From assembly GCA_002898795.1 (NCBI GenBank), contig BEIG01000024.1, positions 1-37,678 on the forward strand: 37,678 nucleotides of DNA, given 5' to 3'. Origin of the DNA: a bacterium HR30. Its GTDB lineage: Bacteria > Desulfobacterota > Binatia > HRBIN30. The translations under genes were made by a program, and so were the position numbers. Shown here one piece after another: positions 127 through 23,913 of this stretch (the first letter of the stretch is position 1; every line of letters starts with the position of its first letter). The notes below the pieces were generated by a model. The model was not told where the DNA came from. It did no database searches and saw nothing but the letters and a program-made list of their open reading frames with translations.

Positions 127-540
127 ATGCGCTCGGTGAGAAACGCAAGCGGATTTACGTTGATCGAGATCATGGTGGTGGTGTTTATCCTAGGGTTACT
201 TGTGACCCTTGTGGCTCCGAAGATCATTGGGCGAACCGACGAAGCGCGACGCACTAAGGCCGCGGCCGACATCAAGGCAATTGAGCAGGCACTCAATTTG
301 TTCAAGCTGGACAATGGCTTTTACCCCAGCACCCAAGACGGGCTCCAGGCTTTGGTCCAGCGCCCAGCCAACGCCCGCAATTGGAATCCCGACGGCTACC
401 TCTCGCAAATTCCGATAGACCCGTGGGGAAATCCCTATGTGTATTTTTCCGATGGTACCTCGGTGATTATCAAATCGTACGGTGCCGACGGCCAGGAAGG
501 CGGCGAGGGTAAAAACGCCGACATTGACAATCGTGGGTAA
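127..540 (+). CDS. gspG: Type II secretion major pseudopilin GspG
   Basis: This is a 137-residue major pseudopilin that polymerises into the periplasmic pseudopilus of the T2SS. The N-terminus is a short basic leader ending in Gly, followed by FTLIE with the conserved Glu at mature position 5, and then a hydrophobic helix to about residue 31. The C-terminal part has the GspG signature: a YPSTQDGLQALV segment, a DPWGNPY motif, and an acidic Gly-rich end (SYGADGQEGGEGKNADI) that in this family binds calcium. A GGAGG ribosome-binding site lies at 114-118, eight bases before the ATG. The leader should be cleaved and N-methylated by a prepilin peptidase not seen in this window. Length is normal for the family. 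Confidence 0.97.
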   Translation: MRSVRNASGFTLIEIMVVVFILGLLVTLVAPKIIGRTDEARRTKAAADIKAIEQALNLFKLDNGFYPSTQDGLQALVQRPANARNWNPDGYLSQIPIDPWGNPYVYFSDGTSVIIKSYGADGQEGGEGKNADIDNRG

Positions 541-995
541 CCGCCGTGTTGCATGGGAAAGCTCGGCAAGTCAGTTGGTCCGTACCGCACACTCAGTCTC
601 TTCTCTGCGGGCGCCTGGGTGGTCTCTAGGCCGTGAAGTGAGTTTCTCGCGTTTCCGGCCTCACTCCCGGCGGTGCTCTCGATCGAAACTGAGTGTCGGC
701 TTCGTTGGCTGGCAAACTGGCATCAAGACTTTGGGAAGGCCGGGCCACAGCACCGACTGGGCAGTATACCAAGGGGAGCCCGACGGAGTTTCTGGCTCGA
801 TTTGGGATACGCCAGGTGCCGGCGGACCTGCACGGTTTACGGCTGGAGTGGGAACGAGCATTTCGGCCCCGCTCAACGTCTTCCCCGACCGACTCCAAGC
901 AGGGCAGACACAGCCCAACGCCACTTCGTGTTATGTGGCTCCAGTTTGATCTTTCAGCGGCGAGCCTTCCCCAAAGGACCGAGAGCGGCACACCC
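541..995. other. Unassigned 455 bp gap between gspG and gspH
   Basis: No recognisable gene is visible in this interval inside an otherwise tightly packed operon. The gspH frame stays open upstream to an ATG at 693, and another plus-strand frame is open through 482-949. The deduced peptides match nothing I recognise, and a pseudopilin does not tolerate a 100-residue N-terminal extension. It may be an untranslated spacer, an internal promoter region or a decayed gene. Confidence 0.4.
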
Positions 996-1520
996 GTGAC
1001 TTCGCGGTCTGGAGGCTTTACGTTGCTGGAACTCAGCCTCGTGTTGCTTCTGCTCTCGGTAATGCTTGTTGTTGCTTTGCCTCGATTCCGCGATCGTGAC
1101 CGAGCCGAACTCTTGGCTCATGCCCATCGTCTCGAATTGACTTTCCGGTTTCTGCGCAATCAAGCTGTCCTCAGCGGCGTAGCTTACAGGCTGCATTTCG
1201 ACTTGGACCAACAGCGCTACTGGGTTGCCTTGGACGAGGCCGGCACGATGGACCTCGCACAATTTGTGTCAGAGGTTGGTTCACTCGCGCGAGGAGTGAG
1301 GCTGGGTGAAGCGGTCGTCATAACAGATGTCTCTTTACCCTTGGAAGGAATCAAGGTGGCCCAGGGCAGCTTGTATACCGTTTTTTATCCCGATGGATCA
1401 GTGGAACCAACGGTCGTTCACCTCGCGACCGCTCGAGAGGCATACACGATGTGGTTCGATCCTCGGTCCCAACGCCTTCGTGGCAGAAGCGGATACTGGG
1501 AGCCAAACTATGGCACCTAG
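996..1520 (+). CDS. gspH: Type II secretion minor pseudopilin GspH
   Basis: This minor pseudopilin (174 residues from the chosen start) joins the pseudopilus tip. A very short leader, MTSRSGG, precedes FTLLELSLVLLLL, with Glu at mature position 5 and a long hydrophobic helix. The rest is a GspH-like globular domain, including FLRNQAVLSG and the late motif YPDGS. I chose the GTG at 996 because it gives the short basic leader that prepilin peptidase needs; a GAGAG stretch lies about ten bases upstream. An in-frame ATG at 933 would give a 28-residue leader and is the main alternative. The end overlaps gspI by 11 bp, implying translational coupling. Confidence 0.85.
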   Translation: MTSRSGGFTLLELSLVLLLLSVMLVVALPRFRDRDRAELLAHAHRLELTFRFLRNQAVLSGVAYRLHFDLDQQRYWVALDEAGTMDLAQFVSEVGSLARGVRLGEAVVITDVSLPLEGIKVAQGSLYTVFYPDGSVEPTVVHLATAREAYTMWFDPRSQRLRGRSGYWEPNYGT

Positions 1521-1905
1521 GCACACTGACCGAGCCAACCGAAGCGGTTTTACGCTATTGGAAGTCCTCATCGCGTTGGCCATCCTAGCAATTGCGTTTG
1601 TCACCCTACTTGGCTGGCACGCCCGCAACGTTGCCACCATCATTTATGACCAGAATTTAGCGCGGGCCGTTCTGTTGGCGCGCGAGCGGGCTAGCTTGGT
1701 ACACTTCCAGGCGTTGCAACAGGGCATCGATAGCGTCCGGAGCGAGGCTGGTCCGATCGATGGCTATCCCGGCTTTTTTTACGACCAGGAGGTGTTTCCC
1801 ACAGGACTGGACGGTATGCGCCAAGTGATACTTCGGGTGTTCTGGGATCAGCGAAACGTGAATGCCTGCGAAGTGACGTTCTTTGTTCGCGATGCCGCAC
1901 AGTAA
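1510..1905 (+). CDS. gspI: Type II secretion minor pseudopilin GspI
   Basis: This 131-residue minor pseudopilin forms the tip complex with GspJ and GspK. A 12-residue leader with basic residues (MAPRHTDRANRSG) is followed by FTLLEVLIALAILAIAF, with Glu at mature position 5. The body has GspI features such as a conserved N-terminal stretch running into NLARAVLLARERA and a C-terminal strand ending in VTFFV. The ATG at 1510 lies inside the last codons of gspH. The frame is open further upstream, but only this start gives a processable leader. It overlaps gspJ by 14 bp. Confidence 0.93.
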   Translation: MAPRHTDRANRSGFTLLEVLIALAILAIAFVTLLGWHARNVATIIYDQNLARAVLLARERASLVHFQALQQGIDSVRSEAGPIDGYPGFFYDQEVFPTGLDGMRQVILRVFWDQRNVNACEVTFFVRDAAQ

Positions 1906-2641
1906 GTCCACCAGCGCTGGCTTTACGCTGCTCGAGTTGCTCGTTGCGATCGCAATCTTTGCGATCATGGCTACGACTGTTTATGGAGTCCTATGGCGTA
2001 CGTTAGACGGGAAAAACCGTGCTGAAGAACGGGCGGAGTTGTTCGCTGCCGGTCGCGATGCCGTCATGCGCATGGCCGATGATCTCGAACGGGCTTTGGC
2101 CCCAGGAACTTCCAGTCGCGGAGCAGTTTGGTTCATCGGCGTGCCCGGAAATGAGGCCGTACCGACTGATCAAGTCGGCTTTGTCATCGACACTCGGCGC
2201 GAGCGAAGTGCAGCTGGGCGCCGCGGAGGCAGAGTTTTTGTGTCGTACCTTTTAGAGCCCATGCCCGACGTACCCCGTGCATACGCGTTGCTGCGCCACG
2301 AGGAAGTTCTGCTGGATCCGTTGAGCCAAGCCACCACGGACTCCTTATCGAACGAGCAAGCGACCTCTAACCCGTTAACCAGCGACGTGTACTTAGTTGA
2401 CCGCGTTGCGGGCCTTCGTTTGCGGTATCTAGACCCTGCAACGGGTTCGTGGACCAACTCCTGGGACACCACCACTCCCGTGCAGCCTGGGCAGTTACCA
2501 CCGGGACTGCCCCCAGTCGTCGAAATTCAATTATTCTTGTTCGACAATAGCGGCGGGTACGTGGATTTCAGCACGCGTGTCGATCTCCTGCTCTATGTTC
2601 CTCCGCCAACGCCTGGTCCGGGAGGTTTGCCTCTTGGCTAA
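1892..2641 (+). CDS. gspJ: Type II secretion minor pseudopilin GspJ
   Basis: This 249-residue minor pseudopilin of the tip complex starts with leader MPHSKSTSAG, then FTLLELLVAIAIFAIMA with Glu at mature position 5. Family landmarks include RDAVMRMADDLERALAP, the N-terminal helix extension typical of GspJ, and VAGLRLRYLDPATGSWTNSWD, the GspJ strand seen before the VEI motif near the C-terminus. The start is the ATG at 1892 inside the end of gspI; a TTG nine bases upstream is less likely. The C-terminus is Pro-rich (PPPTPGPGG) and its codons also carry the gspK ribosome-binding site. Confidence 0.94.
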   Translation: MPHSKSTSAGFTLLELLVAIAIFAIMATTVYGVLWRTLDGKNRAEERAELFAAGRDAVMRMADDLERALAPGTSSRGAVWFIGVPGNEAVPTDQVGFVIDTRRERSAAGRRGGRVFVSYLLEPMPDVPRAYALLRHEEVLLDPLSQATTDSLSNEQATSNPLTSDVYLVDRVAGLRLRYLDPATGSWTNSWDTTTPVQPGQLPPGLPPVVEIQLFLFDNSGGYVDFSTRVDLLLYVPPPTPGPGGLPLG

Positions 2642-3818
2642 CAAGAGGGGCAACGAACGCGGGGTGGCCTTGATCATGGCTCTGCTGGTGGTGGCGCTGC
2701 TCACCATCACGGTCACGGAGTTCTTTTTCTCTGTAGAAATCGATGCTCGAATGGCCCGCAACTCCGTGCACAGCTTGCAGGCCGCATTGCTGGCTCGGTC
2801 AGGCATTAGTCTAGGCGAGGCGCTGCTGATGCAGGACCAAGATCCACTGACCGATTCGTTCCTGGAAGAGTGGTGCCCCCTGCAAGCCCGTGAAGGCCGC
2901 GCGTGCCAAATTGACGACGGCGGAGGGTTCATCGCTCTGCCCCCGAACTCTCGACTTCGAGTGGAAATCTGGGACGAAAGTGGCAAAATCAACGTTAACC
3001 TCACACGACCTCAAACCCAGGCGGAGTGGCGCGCTGGCCGCCTCAACCCTAATCCGGAACAAGCACCACAGCGTTATCAATCTTGGCTGTTCGCTCTCGG
3101 ACGGGTGATGGACTCTCGCACTGACGCGATAACCGCGCTCGACGACTATTGGAATCAACTCTTCGAGTTTTACTTTGGCCCGCTGACGAACCCTGCCGGA
3201 GGCGGTGCAACGCCGACGGCCGGAACCTCCGCCGCACAAACTCCAGGACTTATGGCGACTCCTCCGCCATTGACCACCTTATACTTTGGCTCGCTTGACG
3301 AAGTTACCGCGGTCCCAGGATTCCTGACCGCAGGCGAACTCCGTCGCTATCGAGCTTTTCTCACAGCATTTGCCTGGCCGTTTCCGAGCCAGGTTAACGC
3401 CAACACCGCACCTCGAGAAGTGCTGACAGCAATTATTGGTGACGCGCAGGTGGTGGAAGAAATCGTCCAGCAGCGGCAAACCCAAGTTTTGCAAGCGAGC
3501 AACGTGCTTGCGTTGATAACCACGGCTTCCACGAACCAGGACCCTTTGTACCGTAACGCACGCATGATGCTCGGTGCCAGAAGTAACGTTTACTCCATTC
3601 GCGCTACGGCCATCGTCAACATGAATCCCATGACCGGAACGGGAGGCATCAGTCGTTCCGCCGAAATGCTTGTTCGACGTGATCCCAAGCAGGTGCAGCC
3701 AGGAACGGCGGGTGGTACAGTAACGCGCTGGAAGCTTACACGGCTGTACTGGCAGAAAGATGCTGGGGCCGTTTTGTTTCGGCCAGAGTTTGGAAGTAGC
3801 GATTCAAATGAACTGTAA
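2634..3818 (+). CDS. gspK: Type II secretion minor pseudopilin GspK
   Basis: This is the large minor pseudopilin that caps the pseudopilus (394 residues). After a ten-residue basic leader comes VALIMALLVVALLTITVTEFFF. As usual for GspK, the Glu at mature position 5 is absent. Family motifs include SLQAALLARSGISLGEALL, DESGKINVN and QVNANTAPREVLTA. I chose the TTG at 2634 because a strong GGGAGG at 2620-2625 sits eight bases before it and the leader is then short. An in-frame ATG at 2595 would give a 23-residue leader and is the alternative. A Pro/Thr-rich loop occurs around residues 200-230. The start overlaps gspJ by 8 bp. Confidence 0.92.
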   Translation: MANKRGNERGVALIMALLVVALLTITVTEFFFSVEIDARMARNSVHSLQAALLARSGISLGEALLMQDQDPLTDSFLEEWCPLQAREGRACQIDDGGGFIALPPNSRLRVEIWDESGKINVNLTRPQTQAEWRAGRLNPNPEQAPQRYQSWLFALGRVMDSRTDAITALDDYWNQLFEFYFGPLTNPAGGGATPTAGTSAAQTPGLMATPPPLTTLYFGSLDEVTAVPGFLTAGELRRYRAFLTAFAWPFPSQVNANTAPREVLTAIIGDAQVVEEIVQQRQTQVLQASNVLALITTASTNQDPLYRNARMMLGARSNVYSIRATAIVNMNPMTGTGGISRSAEMLVRRDPKQVQPGTAGGTVTRWKLTRLYWQKDAGAVLFRPEFGSSDSNEL

Positions 3819-3842
3819 ATCGGTAAAGGCATAACGGAGTCC

Positions 3843-5360
3843 ATGCCCCAACGCGTCCTTGCCTTAGAGGTACGAACCGACCAAATCCGCGCCGCGCTAG
3901 TGGAGGCGTCCTTCCGCGACTACAAGGTCATCGGTCTTCACAAATTGTCACTGCGATCGGGGGAGGACTTGGAGGAAACCCTGCGCGATTTTGTGCAGCA
4001 GATCAATTTTCAGCCGCACACCATTGTTTCGTCGTTGCCAGGAGAACTGGTGACCTTACGAACGTTTTTCCTTCCCTTCAAAGACCGCAAGCGTTTGGAT
4101 CAAACCGTTCCCTACGAGCTGGAAACTCAGGTTCCGTTTGACCTCGAGGAAGTCGTCATTTCCTACCAGGTACTACAGCGGGAGAAGACGGGCAGCCAGG
4201 TTCTGGCAGCTTTGGTTCCCCGCACGGACTTGGAGCGGCACTTAAACGCCTTGCAAGGAGCCGGCTTGGACCCAAAGGTCGTGGATTTCGCACCTCTGGC
4301 CAGTCTCAACGTACTGCAGCTCCTAGATCTCCCGGTCGCTGAACGAACCGTTTTCATCGGCGGCGAAATCGATCGCCTGACCGTGGCCCTTTACCGGGGC
4401 GGAGCACTTGTTGGTATTCGCACCATCACCCCCGCGAGTGCCTGGTCCCTTCCGGACTCGGGCGAGGGGAACGGTCGGCCGGAAGTCCTGGAAAACGTGG
4501 TGAGCGACTTGATGGCTGAACTGCGTTGGACCCTTTTGGCGCTCAACGGAGACTCGGTGGAACAGGGCACGCGCTGTGTGCTTGTGGGCGAGGGTATTTA
4601 CTTCGATCAGCTAGCGGGTGGCCTACGGACCGAGCTTGGGATGAACGTTCTGCGCCTCCAGGAGTCGCCTCTCAAGGGATTGCCGTCAGCGTTACGAGAA
4701 CAGTTACCACCTTTCACCGCTCCCATTGGGTTGGCGCTCCGTGAGATCCAGCCAGACCGCTGTTATGGCCTCAACTTCCGCCTCGGCGAGTTCGCATACC
4801 ATCGGGGCCAACAAGAACTGCGGCGTGCGTTGTTCGGGAGCGCCACGCTAGCGGTGATTGCCTTGGGCCTGTTTGTTTTGCAGACGTACCTGAACTACCG
4901 CTACCTGGAAGCTCAGCTTGCAGCGGTCAACAACCAAATCCGATATATCTTCCGGCAGACCCTCCCTGACGTGCAGCGAATCATCGACGAGGGCCGGCAG
5001 ATTCGGGAGGAAATCGTTGCCGCGGAAAAGAGGCTGAAGCTTCTCGGAAGTGTTGCCCCGCCGAGTGGCGCCACAGCCATCGATGCCCTGAACGCGATTA
5101 GCACTGCGGTTCCAGAGTCGCTCAAGCTCGAAGTCGACGAGTACGTCATGGACACGGAGGAAATTAAAATTCGTGCCCACACGGACTCCCTGGACACGCC
5201 GAACGCCATTCGCGAAGCGATTGCGAACGGAAAATATTTTGCCGACGTTCAGGTAAAAGACATTAAGACCGCACCGGACGGCCGTGTGGACTTTCGGATC
5301 ATTCTCACCCTGAACAAGGGTGGCCTGCCCGCGGCCGGCCGTTCCAGCGGGAGAAGCTAA
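3843..5360 (+). CDS. gspL: Type II secretion assembly platform protein GspL
   Basis: This 505-residue GspL joins the cytoplasmic ATPase GspE to the periplasmic GspM. Residues 1 to about 310 form an actin/PilM-like cytoplasmic domain, beginning RVLALEVRTDQIRAALVE and containing SLPGELVTLRTFFLPFKDRKRLDQTVPYELE, which is the PilM/GspL signature. A single membrane helix lies near residues 330-350. A coiled segment follows (YLEAQLAAVNNQIR to EIVAAEKRLKLL), then a ferredoxin-like periplasmic domain. ACGGAG lies a few bases before the ATG. It shares one base with gspM through a TAATG junction. Confidence 0.95.
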   Translation: MPQRVLALEVRTDQIRAALVEASFRDYKVIGLHKLSLRSGEDLEETLRDFVQQINFQPHTIVSSLPGELVTLRTFFLPFKDRKRLDQTVPYELETQVPFDLEEVVISYQVLQREKTGSQVLAALVPRTDLERHLNALQGAGLDPKVVDFAPLASLNVLQLLDLPVAERTVFIGGEIDRLTVALYRGGALVGIRTITPASAWSLPDSGEGNGRPEVLENVVSDLMAELRWTLLALNGDSVEQGTRCVLVGEGIYFDQLAGGLRTELGMNVLRLQESPLKGLPSALREQLPPFTAPIGLALREIQPDRCYGLNFRLGEFAYHRGQQELRRALFGSATLAVIALGLFVLQTYLNYRYLEAQLAAVNNQIRYIFRQTLPDVQRIIDEGRQIREEIVAAEKRLKLLGSVAPPSGATAIDALNAISTAVPESLKLEVDEYVMDTEEIKIRAHTDSLDTPNAIREAIANGKYFADVQVKDIKTAPDGRVDFRIILTLNKGGLPAAGRSSGRS

Positions 5361-5962
5361 TGTTCGATTTTGCACCTCTCTTAAGGTACTTCGATCGCCT
5401 AGCACCACGGGAAAGGCTACTGCTTGTCGTAGCCGCAGTTTCTACGGTGTTGATTTTGGGGTACGCCTTCGTGTGGGACCCTCTTCAGGTAAACATGGAG
5501 CAGCTCTCGCGGAGAATTGCCATCAAAGAAAAGGAGCTGGTCGAACTCCAACGGCAGCGAGAGTACTACCTCGAACTGCTTCGGCAACTTGAAGCCTACG
5601 GCGACATTTCCGAGGTGGATCCAAACTTCAACCTGCTGGGTTATCTCCAAGGAGTTGTGACGGCAGCTGTGAGCCGAGAGAAAATCGTTTCCTTGAATCC
5701 CACCACGAGGCCGAAACCCGAGGCTCCAGAATTTTTGGAGGAAATGGTGGAAATCAAACTCACCCAGGTGGCCCTTCCGCAGATCGTGGAATTGTTGCAT
5801 CGCGTGGAAAAAGGAGATCACCCCCTACACTTTTCCCGCGTATCCATAAAGAAACGCGTGAACGACCCATATAGTTTCGACGTGCAGGCCATTGTGGCGG
5901 TACTCAAGCCAGCCGAGAAACCCCCGGAGAAGGCGAGTGACCGCCCTGCAGCGGCGAGTTAG
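5360..5962 (+). CDS. gspM: Type II secretion protein GspM
   Basis: This 200-residue bitopic inner-membrane protein pairs with GspL in the assembly platform. A short cytoplasmic N-terminus containing the typical LAPRERLLL motif leads into a membrane helix at about residues 19-38. A coiled coil then runs through MEQLSRRIAIKEKELVELQRQREYYLELLRQ, and a small ferredoxin-like periplasmic domain follows (LTQVALPQIVELLHRVE). The C-terminus is Pro/Glu-rich and probably disordered. The start ATG overlaps the gspL stop (TAATG). Confidence 0.93.
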   Translation: MFDFAPLLRYFDRLAPRERLLLVVAAVSTVLILGYAFVWDPLQVNMEQLSRRIAIKEKELVELQRQREYYLELLRQLEAYGDISEVDPNFNLLGYLQGVVTAAVSREKIVSLNPTTRPKPEAPEFLEEMVEIKLTQVALPQIVELLHRVEKGDHPLHFSRVSIKKRVNDPYSFDVQAIVAVLKPAEKPPEKASDRPAAAS

Positions 5963-5974
5963 TGGGAAACGACG

Positions 5975-6895
5975 ATGCGAGCGCTGCAAAACGGGTTTCG
6001 TGGGCTGCCCCTTCCCCCGTTGACTCTGCCAGAGTTTCTCACCCGTCGATTGTTCTGGCTGTACACCGCGTACACATTGGTGGTTTTCCTCGTCGCGCTG
6101 CTTTTCACATTTCCACATGACTTACTCATTAAAAGAGCACTCCAGAATCTCGACCGGGGGCCCCTGCCCCTCAGGGTTCAGAGCGCAGGCCTTTCGCCAC
6201 TGAAGGGTTACCAACTGGTAGGACTACGAATTGGCGGGTTAGACGAGGGGCAACCTCCACTTCTTGAGTTTTCTAGCGTATGGGCGCGGCCGCTGTGGAC
6301 GGAGTGGATCAAGGGGAATTTTTACGCCGCAAGCCTCGGTGCCGAACTGTACGGAGGCCAAATGCGAGGGCATCTTGCTTACCGCGACACAGGTCTGGTG
6401 GGAGTTGTCGCGTGGCAAAACCTGCAGTTATTGCGGTACCGCACGCTCCAAATCCAGTTGGAGGAGGGGCAAGTTGGAGGGCAGGTTGGGGGAAGTTTGT
6501 CATTCGAGTTGAGGGGCACAGCCTTCCAACAAGGACAAGCCAATGGCGAGATTGTGGTGGACGACCTCCGGCTCGAACGGGCGAAAATCAATGGATGGCC
6601 CGTGCCCGATGTGCGCTTCAAGCAGGTCAAATCGAAATTTCGTGTCACACCAGGGAAAGTGGATCTGACAGAGCTTGCGGCCAACGGCGACCTTGTCATC
6701 CAAGGTTCCGGCTCGATCACCTTGCGCGAACCCTACGGGGAAAGTCTTCTGAACCTGCGCTTGACCGTCGCCCCTGGACCGCAAACATCGGATACGATTA
6801 AGGCCGTTTTGGCCTTGTTGCCAAAACCGAGTGGCGGAAAACCTGACGCGCCGGTAACCGTAACCGGAACACTGGCACATCCAAAAATCCGCTAA
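5975..6895 (+). CDS. gspN: Type II secretion protein GspN (AsmA-like)
   Basis: This 306-residue protein has one N-terminal membrane helix at about residues 28-50. A long beta-rich periplasmic region follows, with repeating hydrophobic/Gly strands such as LPLRVQSAGLSPLKGYQLVGLRIGG and VNLTELAANG-like turns. This fits the GspN family found as the last gene of many deltaproteobacterial and Leptospira-type T2SS operons, whose fold resembles AsmA/TamB-type lipid-transfer proteins. A GGGAAA stretch precedes the ATG, 12 bp after gspM. The gene ends 16 bp before the 3' end of the convergent repeat-protein gene. Its role in secretion is poorly defined in the family. Confidence 0.85.
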   Translation: MRALQNGFRGLPLPPLTLPEFLTRRLFWLYTAYTLVVFLVALLFTFPHDLLIKRALQNLDRGPLPLRVQSAGLSPLKGYQLVGLRIGGLDEGQPPLLEFSSVWARPLWTEWIKGNFYAASLGAELYGGQMRGHLAYRDTGLVGVVAWQNLQLLRYRTLQIQLEEGQVGGQVGGSLSFELRGTAFQQGQANGEIVVDDLRLERAKINGWPVPDVRFKQVKSKFRVTPGKVDLTELAANGDLVIQGSGSITLREPYGESLLNLRLTVAPGPQTSDTIKAVLALLPKPSGGKPDAPVTVTGTLAHPKIR

Positions 6896-6911: not shown

Positions 6912-9900
6912 TCAGCCCAGTCCGTCTCTCCCACTTCGCATTCGACCCGCAGTAAGCCCAATGAACCCTGCAAATATTGCCCAAGCCCATCCCCCAGTTG
7001 CTCTCTCTTGAACCTGACAACCGTCTCCTTCGGCCTCCCGAACATCGGTTCCCGGTGCTGCAGATTGCGTGGGCGACGGGTTGGATCCTGCAGGGGTAGA
7101 AGTTGGTGTCGAACGGGTGGAATGGGTTGGTGTGCCTGTACCCTCCAGAACCTGCGTCAAGGTCGGCGTGAACGTGGGGGTTTGCGCAGGAGTGAACGAC
7201 GTGGTTGGAGTAGGGGAGGGTGTTGGCTCCGCTCTGGGCAACTCCAGTGTGCCGAATTGCACAATTGCGGAGCGATTACCTGCCTCGTCCTCCGCTCGCG
7301 CGGCAATGTATACGCGGCCGTTCAGGGAATCAGGCAGGGTGGCCGAGATCGTTAGCGGTCGGCCCCGACCAGGCGCTGCATCTCCGAGCTTCACGACTAG
7401 GGAACTGGCTCGCTCAAACATCGTCGCGTCCAAGATAGGAGAGGAGGAAACTCGGAGGTCGATTCGTGCGAGCGTGCCGCAAAACTGATCGTCCCCAGGC
7501 GTGTCCCCTAGGACAATTCGCAGTTCTCGGGCAGCGACCAGATCCAGTCGTCCAACCGGCGGTGCGGGCGGCCAGGCATCAGTTTCGTAGTTCCCCGTGC
7601 TCCATGGATCGTGGTGGTACTGCCGCCAGGGCAGGTAACCGCAACTCGAGCCACTCGTTGAATAAACAAACAGGTATCCCTCGCGAGTCACCGCAGCAAT
7701 TTCTAAGGTGCCGTCCCCGTCAATGTCTCCTGCCGCTGGCGACCCGATCGACCAACCACCGGTGAACTTCGGCCACTCCGGTGGCACCGCCCCGAACGGA
7801 TCTACTGCCCGCAGGTCGTACACGCCGCTACCCCAGATGGCTTCCGCGACACCATCTCCCGTGATGTCGACAGCAATGGGTGCAACGAAAAATTGCAAAT
7901 CATTGACCAGCTGCGGAAAGGCAGGCCGAAATCCGCCTGAGGCCGGTGAACCATCGCTCTGTGCAATCTCCCAAAGGTTCAGATGATTTTCGGCAGGAAA
8001 CTGGCGCGCGGGAAGATTCGCGTCGAGGAACTTCCCTAAGCCAGCCGCGGGCGCGAGCAAGTGGTACCCACGACCAACGCCAAGCATCTCTGCGATGACA
8101 GGAGCACCCAAAGCCGGGTAACTCGGGCTGTCGACTGCGGGGCTTTCAGGGCCGAGGCGATCCGCCTGAAGCGTGCGAGGTATGCTGCCACGCTCGTTTT
8201 CTAGAAAGGACTCGCCGTTTCCCCGGAACACATAAGCCGGCCCCAACATCGAAAATGCCGCCACCTCCGAACGCCCGTCACGATCCAGGTCTGCCAACGC
8301 CGGCGGACCATTAGAACCGGTCCCCACCACCGGCAGCAATTCTGTCGTCAGCATGGCCAAACGCACCGGCCAACCGGTCAAAAAGGCGTCTGGGTTCCAC
8401 CCAAATAGCAATGGGTTAGAGCCTCGGTTGACCCCAGAAGAGTGGATCGCATACAGGCGCGTGTTGCCGCTTTCCAAAACCCCGCCCACTTGCAGAAAGT
8501 TCAATACCACGTTGGTGATCACGGCATTGGGCCGCTCTCTGTAAGCCTCGTTGACAACGGCGACCACATCCAGGAGGCCATCACCATCGACGTCCCCTAG
8601 AGAAGGGGGCACGATGATCTTGGTACCCATTCTCTGGCCAGCACTCGCAGTTAACCGAACGCGATTCGTGACGGGATCTACCGCAGCAACTTTCGCCGGA
8701 TCCTTCAGTAACACCGGCCACCCAGGAACCGGCCGGCCATCGAAGAACCAGGCGTAGATGTGCCGGTCCATCGCGCCGGCAATGATTTCCAGCGAGCCGT
8801 CCGCCGAACCGTCGAGGTTACCCAGAACCGGACCACTGATAAAGCCACGCGCCAAACGATTGTCCGGATCGAGGCGGTGCACACGATCCGGCACGAGCCG
8901 CATTTCCGGGATTTCCTCGCGTTCCGATCGGAGCGGAAAGGAAAACTCTAACCGGGTGCGGACAGGAAAACCGGGGCGCCTACGCCCGTTGCGGTCCCAC
9001 ACATACACCTTGCCATAGAGATCAGCGGCAACCACTTCAGGCGAGCCGTCTCGGTCCAGGTCACCCACGGCGGGCATCCCAAGGATCGGCGTATAAGGAT
9101 GCGGTACCTCGCCACTTCGGAATGCAGGGGAGTCAGTGTGCACCTCCATGAGATCCGTGTGCACCGGCCAACCGGGCGCTTCGTCGAGACTTGGCCCCGT
9201 GAACACGTGGACGGAGCCGTCGGAAGTCGCCATCAGCAAGTCGTCCTTGCCGTCTCCGGTGAGATCCACAAAGAGGGGACCAGCGCCGCCATCGCTGTTG
9301 AGCATGCGGGGAGTCCCTGGCCATGCCTTCGGGTCGCGGTGCAGAAACCACGCCCGCCGGTCTTCCCCGACGTTGCCCTCGTCATCGATCACTCGTAATC
9401 GCACCGTAGCCGTGAACCGGTCTGGATCGGGACTTCCGTCCTCCGTAGCCGGCGCCCCGGAAACACCATACGGCATGCGCGAAGCCAGCGCATGAAGATC
9501 GATCTGACCAAGAAGCCCGGAACGGGCTCGCACTTCGCTTCCCGTAGCCACCACAGAAAATTCTTCTTCGCGCGGCTGCACACCAGGGGCCACGGCAAGC
9601 TGCCACTGAAACGACCGCGCTCTGTTGGCGGCAACGCGTCCGGTAACACTCAAGGTGCCCGCGTCTGGCGACACGAGCGTAAACCATTGCGGGCTTTCGA
9701 TCTCGGCCTCGGGCGGAATTCTCCCTTGTTGGATCATCTCGACGGCGCGTCGGGCGTTGATCCGCCCGTAGCCAAAATATTGATCGAACCCTGCAATGGA
9801 TGGGAAACGTTGCGACTGCACGCCTTGGGGCAGGTCGAAGCCAACTCGATAATTCTGGGGCAACCCCATTTCGGGACGCGCATCGAAATTCACGTCATCG

Positions 9901-11249
9901 GCGCTTTGGGTCAGAATTTGTTTCACTTCGTTCGCGGAAAGGGGGTAGGGAGTGAGCTCCCCGTGATCGCCCGGATAGCGGGTAAGACGACCTCGATCTA
10001 TTTCGTTTCGCGCAGCTGAGTACAGAAGACCCGCAATGCCAGCTCCTAACCCCGTAGCCTCACTCGAACATGCAGTGGAAGGCACAGAGACTGCGATATG
10101 CGGGCCATAATTCGTGCAGCCGTTGAGGTACAAGTAGGAAGGGGGCGACATGGCAAGACCACCAAGAGACGCATATCGGGTCACTGAGTTCACGACCACT
10201 GTGCGTTCGTAAGCTGCCGGGTAATTGTGATGGGCCGACTCCTCGTCGGCAGCCGAGGCAATGACGACGACCCCCCGTCGGTACGCGTAATCGATCGCCG
10301 CCTGACCGAAGCTCGAATGGTTTAGCGTCCCCAGCGCCTCCTGAATCACCAATGCACCGCTGTCCACCGCGAATAACACACCTCGAGCGAAAGCGTTAAC
10401 TTCGGCCACGAAGCTGTCTGCAACCCGCACCATTAAGGCAATGCAATTCGGGCAGGTGCCTACAGACCCACCATTGTTCGCCTCGGCCGTGGAGTCGTGA
10501 GCCTCTCCGGTGCCGTGTCCGTAGTCAACCTCGTCTAGGGGGTCGTTGTCGTCTTCGAAAAAATCCCAACCGGAGATATCGTCGATGTAACCGTTTCCGT
10601 CTCCGTCGTGCCCGTCGGAAAAAAGAAAAATCAAGTCTTCCGGGTCCAGGACCCCATTACCATTTTCGTCGCGCACTCGTGAGTCCCGCTGCCAACCTTG
10701 ACCCGCCTCGTAATCGCGAATGTTGAACACGCCGTCGCCATTGCGATCCCAAGGGTCCGCACTGTTCGATGCACCCTCCGGTATCGGCAGCTCCCCGCGA
10801 TTCAGGTAAAACTTTGCCACCAAGTCTGGCAGCGGCCGATGCCAACGAATCCCAGAATCTAAAATCGCGATCACAACATCGGGCCGACCTGTAGTGACCT
10901 GCCATGCCAGGTCCACGCTGCTTCCGGTGACACCGAATAATTCTTGAGCATTCCCATCAATGTCTGGATTGCCCGTTGTTCCGCTGCCGAGCTTCCAGAG
11001 GGAGCCCCCGGTTAGGTCGTTGGGTATCACCGGTGGGTTGGACTCGGGCAGGAAGAGATACGCGGCAAAATCGTCCGAACGAATACAAGGCCCTTCCAAC
11101 CGGAACACGGAACGCCCACCCTCCGGTAGCGCCTCCTGCCGGCAAGGGCGGGGATTGGCAGGGTATGGAAACTCACCCGCTGCCGACATTGCGACGCTCA
11201 GCACGCTACCCACCCAGGCCGCCAGCCACCATCCTCCTCGTACGGTCAT
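6912..11249 (-). CDS. Exported subtilisin-fold (S8) protein with FG-GAP repeats and C-terminal sorting-like tail
   Basis: This 1445-residue protein starts with a signal peptide (hydrophobic to about residue 24). An S8 subtilase domain spans about 120-510. The Asp (D131 in AILDSG) and His (H245 in YGHGT) are present, but the usual GTSMAAP serine motif reads SSEATGLGAGIAG, placing Thr399 where Ser is expected, and the oxyanion Asn aligns with Asp335. Three calcium-type loops (DRNGDG, DENGNG, DGDGNG) interrupt the domain. About seven to eight FG-GAP/VCBS repeats (GDLDRDG, GDVDGDG, ADLDRDG, GDIDGDG) follow to about residue 1200. The end is a Pro/Thr-rich stalk, a GDGC motif, a short hydrophobic helix and an Arg-containing tail. 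GGGAG precedes the ATG by eight bases. It is convergent with the gsp operon and is a plausible T2SS substrate. It may be an inactive, scaffold-like subtilase. Confidence 0.88.
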   Translation of the reverse strand: MTVRGGWWLAAWVGSVLSVAMSAAGEFPYPANPRPCRQEALPEGGRSVFRLEGPCIRSDDFAAYLFLPESNPPVIPNDLTGGSLWKLGSGTTGNPDIDGNAQELFGVTGSSVDLAWQVTTGRPDVVIAILDSGIRWHRPLPDLVAKFYLNRGELPIPEGASNSADPWDRNGDGVFNIRDYEAGQGWQRDSRVRDENGNGVLDPEDLIFLFSDGHDGDGNGYIDDISGWDFFEDDNDPLDEVDYGHGTGEAHDSTAEANNGGSVGTCPNCIALMVRVADSFVAEVNAFARGVLFAVDSGALVIQEALGTLNHSSFGQAAIDYAYRRGVVVIASAADEESAHHNYPAAYERTVVVNSVTRYASLGGLAMSPPSYLYLNGCTNYGPHIAVSVPSTACSSEATGLGAGIAGLLYSAARNEIDRGRLTRYPGDHGELTPYPLSANEVKQILTQSADDVNFDARPEMGLPQNYRVGFDLPQGVQSQRFPSIAGFDQYFGYGRINARRAVEMIQQGRIPPEAEIESPQWFTLVSPDAGTLSVTGRVAANRARSFQWQLAVAPGVQPREEEFSVVATGSEVRARSGLLGQIDLHALASRMPYGVSGAPATEDGSPDPDRFTATVRLRVIDDEGNVGEDRRAWFLHRDPKAWPGTPRMLNSDGGAGPLFVDLTGDGKDDLLMATSDGSVHVFTGPSLDEAPGWPVHTDLMEVHTDSPAFRSGEVPHPYTPILGMPAVGDLDRDGSPEVVAADLYGKVYVWDRNGRRRPGFPVRTRLEFSFPLRSEREEIPEMRLVPDRVHRLDPDNRLARGFISGPVLGNLDGSADGSLEIIAGAMDRHIYAWFFDGRPVPGWPVLLKDPAKVAAVDPVTNRVRLTASAGQRMGTKIIVPPSLGDVDGDGLLDVVAVVNEAYRERPNAVITNVVLNFLQVGGVLESGNTRLYAIHSSGVNRGSNPLLFGWNPDAFLTGWPVRLAMLTTELLPVVGTGSNGPPALADLDRDGRSEVAAFSMLGPAYVFRGNGESFLENERGSIPRTLQADRLGPESPAVDSPSYPALGAPVIAEMLGVGRGYHLLAPAAGLGKFLDANLPARQFPAENHLNLWEIAQSDGSPASGGFRPAFPQLVNDLQFFVAPIAVDITGDGVAEAIWGSGVYDLRAVDPFGAVPPEWPKFTGGWSIGSPAAGDIDGDGTLEIAAVTREGYLFVYSTSGSSCGYLPWRQYHHDPWSTGNYETDAWPPAPPVGRLDLVAARELRIVLGDTPGDDQFCGTLARIDLRVSSSPILDATMFERASSLVVKLGDAAPGRGRPLTISATLPDSLNGRVYIAARAEDEAGNRSAIVQFGTLELPRAEPTPSPTPTTSFTPAQTPTFTPTLTQVLEGTGTPTHSTRSTPTSTPAGSNPSPTQSAAPGTDVREAEGDGCQVQERATGGWAWAIFAGFIGLTAGRMRSGRDGLG

Positions 11250-22161: not shown

Positions 22162-23913
22162 ATGCGGATGGAGCAAACTTGGTTGGGGAGGGTACACCAC
22201 CGCGCGGTACTGCTGTTACTCCTCTGTTTTTGTGGCGGCACCGCCTCGCGGGCGGACATTCCAGCAGAACCGATTCGACTCAGTGTGCCACTTGTAGGTA
22301 GTAGTCTCGATGCTGACGTCCTGTTTGTCCGCCCGAACGCGGACGGGAGCGTCGCGCTTTTGCTCACGGCCGCGAGCAACCTCGTCGGCAGCGATCGCAA
22401 CGGTAAAAGCGACGTGTTTGTTGTGGACGTGGAAAGCCTGCTCGCCGAGCGTGTCAGCATTTCCTTTCTTGGTCGCGACCCCAACGACGGAAGCTTTCCC
22501 GGTGTTTTGACCGACGACGGATCTATCGCGGTGTTTGGCTCTGCGGCGAACAATTTGGTGACCGGCGACTTCAATCGTACTCCAGACCTTTTCCTGTTCG
22601 ACCGCAACTCCCGACGCACCAGCATTTTGACGCTGGCCAATGACGGGCTCGGGGGCGGAACGGTCCCAGATCTCCCTCCAGCCGTCTCCCCCGAAGGCCG
22701 TTGGATCGCCTTTGCTTCCCAGTCAGACGACTTCGTGGCAAACGACCGGAACGAAGCCAGCGACGTGTTCGTGCTCGATCGCGAATCGGGAACGATCACA
22801 GCGATGACTCTCACCAGGCTCGGGGCGACCGAAGTTCGAACTGCCAACGGGCCTAGTGCGGGCCCCGCGATCAGCACGGACGGCTGCATTGTGGCGTTCT
22901 TCTCCGACGCGAGCAACTTGGTCGAGCGCGACCGCAACGAGGCGCGCGACGTGTTCGTGCGTGACCGCTGCAACGATACCATCGAACGCGTCAGCGTGGC
23001 CAGTAATGGCGCCGAGGCCAATGGGCCCAGCCAAATAGAACTTGCGACTCTTGCGCTCAGTGGCGATGGCCGGTTCGTTGCATTTTCCTCTCGGGCCACG
23101 AACTTAGATGGTGATACCGGGCGCCGATCCCAGATCTTTGTGCGAGACCGCTTCTTGGGCACGACGCGGTTGGTGAGTCGTTCCCCAACGGGCGACATAG
23201 CCAATGCTCCATCGGTTTCACCAAGCCTCGACCGGGAAGGCCGGTTTCTCGTGTTTCAGTCTGCCGCAACTAACCTCTCGCCGGACGACGTGTGGCCTGG
23301 GGAGGACGTATTCGTGGTGGACCTAACCGATGGCGAGCTCCATCTTATCAGCCGTCCCAGCGCCGGCGGAGAGGCCGATGGTGACAGCTACGCCCCGAGC
23401 ATCTCCGCCGACGGCAGCCGAATCGTTTTCCTATCCCGAGCCCGCTTGAGCCCCGTGGATACCGACACACGGGTGGACGCTTACATCACCGCGAACCCCA
23501 TGTTTGGAAAGCCGCCCGGAGGATTAACCCCCACACCTGAAACCCCACCGAGCCCGACACCATCGAGCACAGCGACTCTGAGCCCCTCCGCAACTTTAGA
23601 ACCAACGGCCACAGTTACGCCAACGCCGACGTTTACTGAGACAGCGACACCGCCTCCAACCGCAACACCTACGCTTCACGTGGATGCGACGTCTACACCG
23701 GAAGCACCAGCAGTCGGTACAGCCACGGCGACGGCCACAGCCACAACCACGGTCCCCACACCTGTACCCTCTAGGCCGGCGGGTGGAAGCGGCGATGGCT
23801 GCGGATGCCGCATCGACCCCGAAACCGGCCAACTCACGGGATCTCCTATCTCGCCTTGGGCACTGTTACCCATGGCTTGGGTGCTTTGGTCTCGACGCTT
23901 TCGGAAACAATGA
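22162..23913 (+). CDS. Exported TolB/PD40-like beta-propeller protein with Pro/Thr stalk and C-terminal sorting-like tail
   Basis: This 583-residue protein starts with a signal peptide (basic start, hydrophobic core at about 15-25, then Ala-Asp). About seven repeats of roughly 60 residues follow to about residue 450. Each resembles a PD40/TolB blade with a SxAxNLV-DRN--SDVFVxDR core, suggesting a seven-bladed propeller. The region from about 455 to 550 is almost entirely Pro, Thr, Ala and Ser (TPTPTFTET-type), built from short degenerate TC/AC-rich DNA repeats, for example near 23717-23752. The end has GDGCGCR, a short hydrophobic stretch (WALLPMAWVLW) and an RRFRK tail. This matches the tripartite layout of the S8/FG-GAP protein at 6912-11249. 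The stop overlaps the pyrE start (ATGA). The ligand or partner is unknown. Confidence 0.87.
   Translation: MRMEQTWLGRVHHRAVLLLLLCFCGGTASRADIPAEPIRLSVPLVGSSLDADVLFVRPNADGSVALLLTAASNLVGSDRNGKSDVFVVDVESLLAERVSISFLGRDPNDGSFPGVLTDDGSIAVFGSAANNLVTGDFNRTPDLFLFDRNSRRTSILTLANDGLGGGTVPDLPPAVSPEGRWIAFASQSDDFVANDRNEASDVFVLDRESGTITAMTLTRLGATEVRTANGPSAGPAISTDGCIVAFFSDASNLVERDRNEARDVFVRDRCNDTIERVSVASNGAEANGPSQIELATLALSGDGRFVAFSSRATNLDGDTGRRSQIFVRDRFLGTTRLVSRSPTGDIANAPSVSPSLDREGRFLVFQSAATNLSPDDVWPGEDVFVVDLTDGELHLISRPSAGGEADGDSYAPSISADGSRIVFLSRARLSPVDTDTRVDAYITANPMFGKPPGGLTPTPETPPSPTPSSTATLSPSATLEPTATVTPTPTFTETATPPPTATPTLHVDATSTPEAPAVGTATATATATTTVPTPVPSRPAGGSGDGCGCRIDPETGQLTGSPISPWALLPMAWVLWSRRFRKQ

Follow-up and report, generated by a model that had tools for sequence, protein, structure and literature searches.

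The stretch of DNA analysed here (the window) is the whole of contig C24, 37,678 nucleotides long, in the 3.73-Mb genome of bacterium HR30 (genome G000). It contains two genes whose products end in a cysteine-bearing tail, and an operon for type II secretion, at the following positions:

127..6895, forward strand: type II secretion (T2SS) operon gspG-H-I-J-K-L-M, probably with gspN, convergent with the tagged subtilase gene
6912..11249, reverse strand: tagged protein of 1445 amino acids with subtilase and FG-GAP propeller domains (PF00082, PF13517, PF01839)
6915..7031, reverse strand: C-terminal tag of the subtilase protein, EGDGCQV... (18.6 bits against TIGR03901, tail alone)
22162..23913, forward strand: tagged PD40 beta-propeller protein of 583 amino acids (open reading frame; PF07676, 41.6 bits over a cut-off of 20.9)
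22162..22254, forward strand: N-terminal signal peptide of the PD40 protein, MRMEQTWLGRVHHRAVLLLLLCFCGGTASRA (signal-peptide-like by a simple rule; cleavage site inferred, end approximate)
23512..23790, forward strand: Pro/Thr/Ala-rich stalk of the PD40 protein, residues about 451-543 (from the sequence)
23791..23910, forward strand: C-terminal sorting tag of the PD40 protein, GDGCGCR...RRFRKQ (Cys codon at 23800-23802; TIGR03901 match)
23857..23889, forward strand: hydrophobic segment WALLPMAWVLW of this tag (from the sequence)
23890..23910, forward strand: basic end SRRFRKQ of this tag (from the sequence)

The PD40 open reading frame ends, before its stop codon, in RPAGGSGDGCGCRIDPETGQLTGSPISPWALLPMAWVLWSRRFRKQ, and the tail of the protein is GDGCGCRIDPETGQLTGSPISPWALLPMAWVLWSRRFRKQ. 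The succession of a Pro/Thr-rich stalk, GDGCGCR, WALLPMAWVLW and RRFRK that the initial annotation had described at the end of this gene is present there exactly as described. The stop codon shares bases with the ATG that starts the next gene (ATGA, 23910-23913), which by eye is an orotate phosphoribosyltransferase gene. The subtilase protein ends in EGDGCQVQERATGGWAWAIFAGFIGLTAGRMRSGRDGLG. The two gene bodies are about 11 kb apart and the two tails about 17 kb, and the description of the proteins as non-homologous holds, with no match between the whole proteins at 1e-5 by blastp. In the secretion operon, gspG, gspH, gspL and gspM were recognized by PF08334, PF12019, PF05134 and PF04612 respectively, gspI and gspJ by N_methyl only, and gspK by a T2SSK match just below the cut-off. 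The last gene has no Pfam match and is called gspN by its place; it adjoins the tagged subtilase gene in the window and in two related genomes, G001 and G002.

TIGR03901, a model of the MYXO-CTERM sorting signal, matches the PD40 tail at 20.4 bits when the tail is taken alone and at 16.5 bits in the whole protein (cut-off 20). The subtilase tail has an E-value of 0.034 in a TIGR03901 search of its own genome, and when the whole subtilase protein was scanned the model was not listed even at E ≤ 10. We also built a model of our own, A1, from 28 tails; both tails of the window were left out of it, and the tail of the close PD40 orthologue in G001 was included. A1 matches the PD40 tail with an E-value of 4.2e-5, and the subtilase tail is absent from its matches at E ≤ 0.02.

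Conservation of the tails in orthologues, a check that had been set for this reading, was found in the PD40 family, where the tail is kept in G001 and G002 while the stalk drifts: identity is 82% (G001) and 75% (G002) in the propeller, 61% over 33 residues and 59% over 46 residues in the tail, and most of the stalk falls outside the local alignments. A PD40 orthologue from a Candidatus Binatia bacterium (L041) covers residues 1-582 of our protein, with 74% identity in the best segment, and its tail is GGGDGCGCRVDPQTGDVSASPISVWALAPLAWWILSRRSRKG. Orthologues of the subtilase protein with Cys-bearing tails are present in G001, G002, G003, G012 and G014, and their cores read NGCQV in G001 and GACAV in G002.

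Taken from the window alone, the case for these tails is weak. Such a tail occurs in 2 of the 145 open reading frames of at least 100 amino acids. The shuffled copies gave 9 of 2825, and loci of relatives that lack the tag gave 2 of 322; from these two backgrounds we estimate Poisson P values of about 0.08 and about 0.2. The idea that the likeness of the two tails is a coincidence of GC-rich, low-complexity protein ends draws on these counts, and it is hardly credible once other genomes are considered, where the case is far beyond chance. At E ≤ 1e-3, A1 finds tags in 15 of 148 genomes of the class, which are the 15 genomes of one order of uncultured Binatia, and in none of the 133 others; the C-terminal place and the signal peptides of the tags, described below, also speak against coincidence. 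With the threshold relaxed to E ≤ 0.02, four genomes outside the order match, the best with E = 0.002. TIGR03901 gives the same picture in 39 genomes (our own included), scoring above its cut-off in all 15 genomes of the order and in 0 of the 24 others in the class. Three of these 24 tag-negative genomes have weak TIGR03901 matches; in the one locus read from each, none was C-terminal and one had a Cys. In our own genome TIGR03901 matches nine places at E ≤ 10, three of them above the cut-off. The PD40 tail is one of a family of Cys-bearing C-terminal sorting tags in this order. Pfam named three of the eight own-genome tagged proteins that were scanned, all as FG-GAP proteins. Sorting the ectodomains into families by blast linkage put 79 of 111 proteins into one group, and the result was not used.

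For a description of the tags we assembled 111 tails: 101 from relatives, eight A1 matches and one TIGR03901 match from our own genome, and the subtilase tail. The 101 are those with E-values up to 3.0e-4 among 108 A1 matches at E ≤ 1e-3, the seven weaker ones being left out. Two checks had been proposed, C-terminal placing and co-occurrence with signal peptides, and both came out in favor of a sorting signal. Of the 111 tails, 101 end within 25 residues of the stop codon (one of them runs off the end of its contig), five are followed by 28 to 53 extra residues, and five are internal. Signal-peptide-like starts, called by a simple rule, are present in 70 of 98 tagged open reading frames with complete 5' ends, compared to 42 of 278 other open reading frames in the same loci (Fisher test, 2.6e-24); the rule is unmet in the remaining 28 of the 98. 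Together with the tails of the PD40 orthologues, these results strongly support the proposal of a genome-wide C-terminal surface-sorting system.

Every one of the 111 tails has a Cys early in the match, a result partly built in by the models. The residue before it is G in 95 tails and S in 16, and D or G prevails at positions -2 to -4, where D, G, S, N and E all occur. Position +2 is V in 49 tails, I in 28, C in 14 and T in 11, the PD40 tail of the window being one of the 14 with a second Cys. Because the positions before G/S-C vary, as in the NGC and GAC cores of the subtilase orthologues, the core is better written, on the aligned tails, as Asp/Gly-[G/S]-C-x-[V/I], and GDGC, which the initial annotation had taken as the core motif, is one form of it. 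The accompanying suggestion that the tag might differ from described tags was half right: tails of this order match the MYXO-CTERM model TIGR03901, with at least one above its cut-off in each of the 15 genomes, which places the tag among described signals; its dialect differs from the GCGC core of Myxococcota given in PMC11980579, a second Cys at +2 being found in only the 14 of 111 tails noted above.

The five open reading frames with internal tags (L063 in G000:C118, L061 in G000:C202, L160 in G003:C15, L173 in G013:C151 and L176 in G008:C30) continue in frame, with no stop codon, into another stretch resembling a signal peptide and another exported domain; L063 and L176 have a second tag-like motif later in the open reading frame. 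From their layout these look like pairs of surface proteins made as one precursor. MXAN_5598 is described as a similar case in PMC11980579.

MYXO-CTERM tags are cleaved in M. xanthus by the myxosortase MrtX, and their Cys residues are needed, as stated in PMC11980579. Our genome has two CPBP proteases above the Pfam cut-off. One, of 216 amino acids (G000:C8:45957-46553), is myxosortase-like: it scores 112 bits against MrtP, 99.5 against MrtC, 97 against Mrt_core (NF040914, cut-off 100) and 79 against MrtX, far below every one of the NCBIfam cut-offs for MrtX (180), MrtC (195) and MrtP (250). The other (L010) was rejected as a sorting enzyme, having weak Mrt scores of 37 bits at best. Relatives of the first protease were found at E ≤ 1e-10 in 14 of the 15 tag genomes and in one of the 133 others (G016), so that the 148 genomes divide into 14 with both tag and protease, one with the tag only (G014), one with the protease only (G016) and 132 with neither. 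Since the order is a single clade, this co-occurrence may stand for few evolutionary events.

All 15 proteases match MrtP, MrtC, MrtX and Mrt_core at E ≤ 0.001, and all 15 keep the catalytic motifs EExxxR (E115, E116, R120), H157 and HxxxN (H192, N196), which are the motifs named for MrtX in PMC11980579. Among 11 of them scanned singly, six pass the Mrt_core cut-off and none passes that of MrtX, MrtC or MrtP, the best scores being 117.4, 134.8 and 144.7 bits respectively. A search of solved structures by sequence found no credible relative of the protease, the single match being chance-like (E = 0.87). A gene that by eye is PilT-like is the first or second open reading frame downstream of the protease gene in all 15 loci (L064, L066-L079), and in many of them rlpA-like and TldD-like genes, also identified by eye, lie upstream. 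Among the tag-negative genomes, seven PilT-like loci, of which five have 62-70% identity to the query and the other two 53-54%, show no such protease gene within 1.5 kb.

In G014, where the 148-genome search found tags and no protease, an orthologous pilT is also missing (best match 43% identity, compared to 78% in G013); the protease locus is therefore probably missing from the assembly, and the absence is likely to be an assembly gap. G016, which lies outside the order and is 74% complete, has a protease (L079, in G016:C48) that is 36% identical, with no tag at E ≤ 0.02 and no Lgt2 (described below) found; it may have a different tag dialect, or its genome may be too incomplete. In the wider phylum, relatives of the protease occur at E ≤ 1e-15 in nine of 395 sampled genomes, seven of them outside the order, and the short flanks of four of these loci contain no tag or Lgt2.

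The acyl-transferase that acts with MYXO-CTERM has not been identified, Lgt being a leading candidate, according to PMC11980579. We found two or more matches to PF01790 (LGT) in all 15 tag genomes. Having more than one such match was rejected as a marker of the tag since it is also seen in 8 of 24 tag-negative genomes, and we argue only from one clade, Lgt2. A tree that left out the most divergent LGT matches separates its 17 members from 20 further Lgts of the class (support for the split 1.00 unrooted, 0.99 rerooted). Lgt2 is present in 14 of the 15 tag genomes (it was not found in G001) and in none of the 133 others, and what is new here is this second Lgt clade, restricted within the class to the tag-bearing order. 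Its members score at least 380 bits, and the best Lgt outside the clade 280; the match of the members is a product of how the search was built, but the gap is not. All 17 places were found by PF01790 above its curated cut-off. NCBIfam Lgt models match the five Lgt2 proteins scanned, each below its cut-off, and the same is true of the canonical Lgt of our genome. G004, a genome 85% complete, has no match at E ≤ 1e-45 other than Lgt2.

The gene directly before lgt2 is fabI in 11 of the 14 genomes (L233, L235-L239, L242, L244-L247; three of the FabI proteins were scanned), and each of the five genomes of family f4 has the genes arranged as tagged protein, fabI, lgt2. This f4 arrangement may reflect one ancestral event. 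The adjacency of fabI and lgt2 may link the supply of fatty acids to the second Lgt, or lgt2 might simply travel with fabI.

The secretion operon offers a candidate route beyond the inner membrane. Of the 15 tag genomes 14 have GspG, but so do 22 of 24 genomes without tags, so type II secretion is available in the order without being specific to it, and we rejected it as a marker of the tag. By analogy with M. xanthus, the gspG-N operon is the predicted exporter of the tagged proteins.

What the sequences themselves show is the tags and their C-terminal place, the signal peptides, and a protease and an Lgt2 that are present and occur together with the tags across genomes. We consider it highly probable that the tail serves a Binatia lineage as a sorting signal of the MYXO-CTERM kind, on proteins that are exported, lipidated, possibly by Lgt2, and cut by the myxosortase-like protease; by this analogy it very probably destines exported proteins for the cleavage and lipid anchoring seen in myxobacteria. 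Weighing against this reading are the whole-protein scores of the two window proteins below the TIGR03901 cut-off, the absence of the subtilase tail from the A1 matches, the Mrt scores of our protease below the cut-offs, the exceptions G014 and G016, the Cys invariance partly built in by the models, and the restriction of the co-occurrence to one clade. For the insertion of the helix with the Cys outside, the lipidation, the cleavage, the order of the steps and the type II route we follow the M. xanthus system. A tagged protein would pass through Sec and stay anchored in the inner membrane through its C-terminal helix, [G/S]C facing the periplasm and the Arg cluster lying in the cytoplasm. The Cys would then receive a lipid, perhaps from the dedicated paralogue Lgt2, after which the CPBP intramembrane glutamic protease would cut off the helix and type II secretion would carry the protein onward.

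An ordinary C-terminal membrane anchor, with a helix and a basic stop-transfer end, would keep the protein in the inner membrane with no lipid added and no cleavage. The hydrophobic and basic parts of the tail could come from any helix with Arg residues, and we nevertheless regard this reading as unlikely: a plain anchor needs neither a Cys nor a small residue before it, yet G/S-C occurs in 111 of 111 tails (partly by construction) and is kept in the PD40 orthologues, and the tags and the myxosortase-like protease are limited to nearly the same genomes. There is even less room for another known sorting system, either GlyGly-CTERM with rhombosortase or PEP-CTERM with exosortase. These share the tripartite plan, and many of our tails are Gly-rich before the helix; however, when the two whole proteins and the two tails were compared with NCBIfam up to E = 10, MYXO-CTERM models were the only sorting signals listed, and the genome encodes a matching protease of Mrt type. 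A MYXO-CTERM-like signal remains our preferred reading.

A 2024 paper by Haft reportedly predicted the myxosortases. The Binatia system shares with MYXO-CTERM (TIGR03901, TIGR03382) and MrtX-MrtC the tripartite C-terminal tag of Cys, helix and Arg on signal-peptide proteins, the CPBP glutamic intramembrane protease with its EExxxR, H and HxxxN motifs, the presence of type II secretion and the rare internal tags. It differs in lineage (Binatia as opposed to Myxococcota), in the dialect of the core, in its proteases, which in six of the 11 cases scanned singly pass the Mrt_core cut-off and in none that of MrtX, MrtC or MrtP, and in tag number: each genome has 2 to 16 tags at E ≤ 1e-3, which are lower bounds because a limited number of candidates was scored per genome, as against 35 in M. 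xanthus (PMC11980579). JDVT-CTERM with MrtJ and Synerg-CTERM with MrtS have a homologous Mrt-type protease, and an invariant Cys is common to JDVT-CTERM and our tag (PMC11980579), whereas the protease of our genome scores only 41 bits against MrtJ (cut-off 75) and 55 against MrtS (cut-off 130), and NCBIfam listed no such signal model for the tails of the window.

There is also a likeness to the Lgt/LspA lipoprotein pathway. In a lipobox a small residue and then a Cys stand at the periplasmic end of a helix, as in the tag, and Lgt2 is a paralogue of Lgt; unlike a lipobox, the tag has an inverted chain direction, is C-terminal, lacks the Leu-rich part, and goes with a CPBP-type protease. We put forward, as a tentative proposal that could well turn out otherwise, that Lgt2 is a dedicated enzyme adding diacylglyceryl to the C-terminal Cys before the myxosortase cut. 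The result would be an inverted, C-terminal lipoprotein pathway, and Lgt2 would be the acyl-transferase that the MYXO-CTERM field seeks.

Literature searches on MYXO-CTERM, myxosortase, Lgt and Binatota-type names gave no report of the system in Binatia among the matches listed, in sources available in part. PMC11980579 has no word beginning with Binat and calls the MYXO-CTERM tag myxobacteria-specific. What we describe is a complete-looking pair of tag and protease in uncultured Binatia, with a dialect of its own. Because of the restricted Lgt2 clade, the missing lipidation step can be put to a simple test by co-expression in E. coli, and the tags point to proteins of these uncultured Binatia that are probably on the cell surface.
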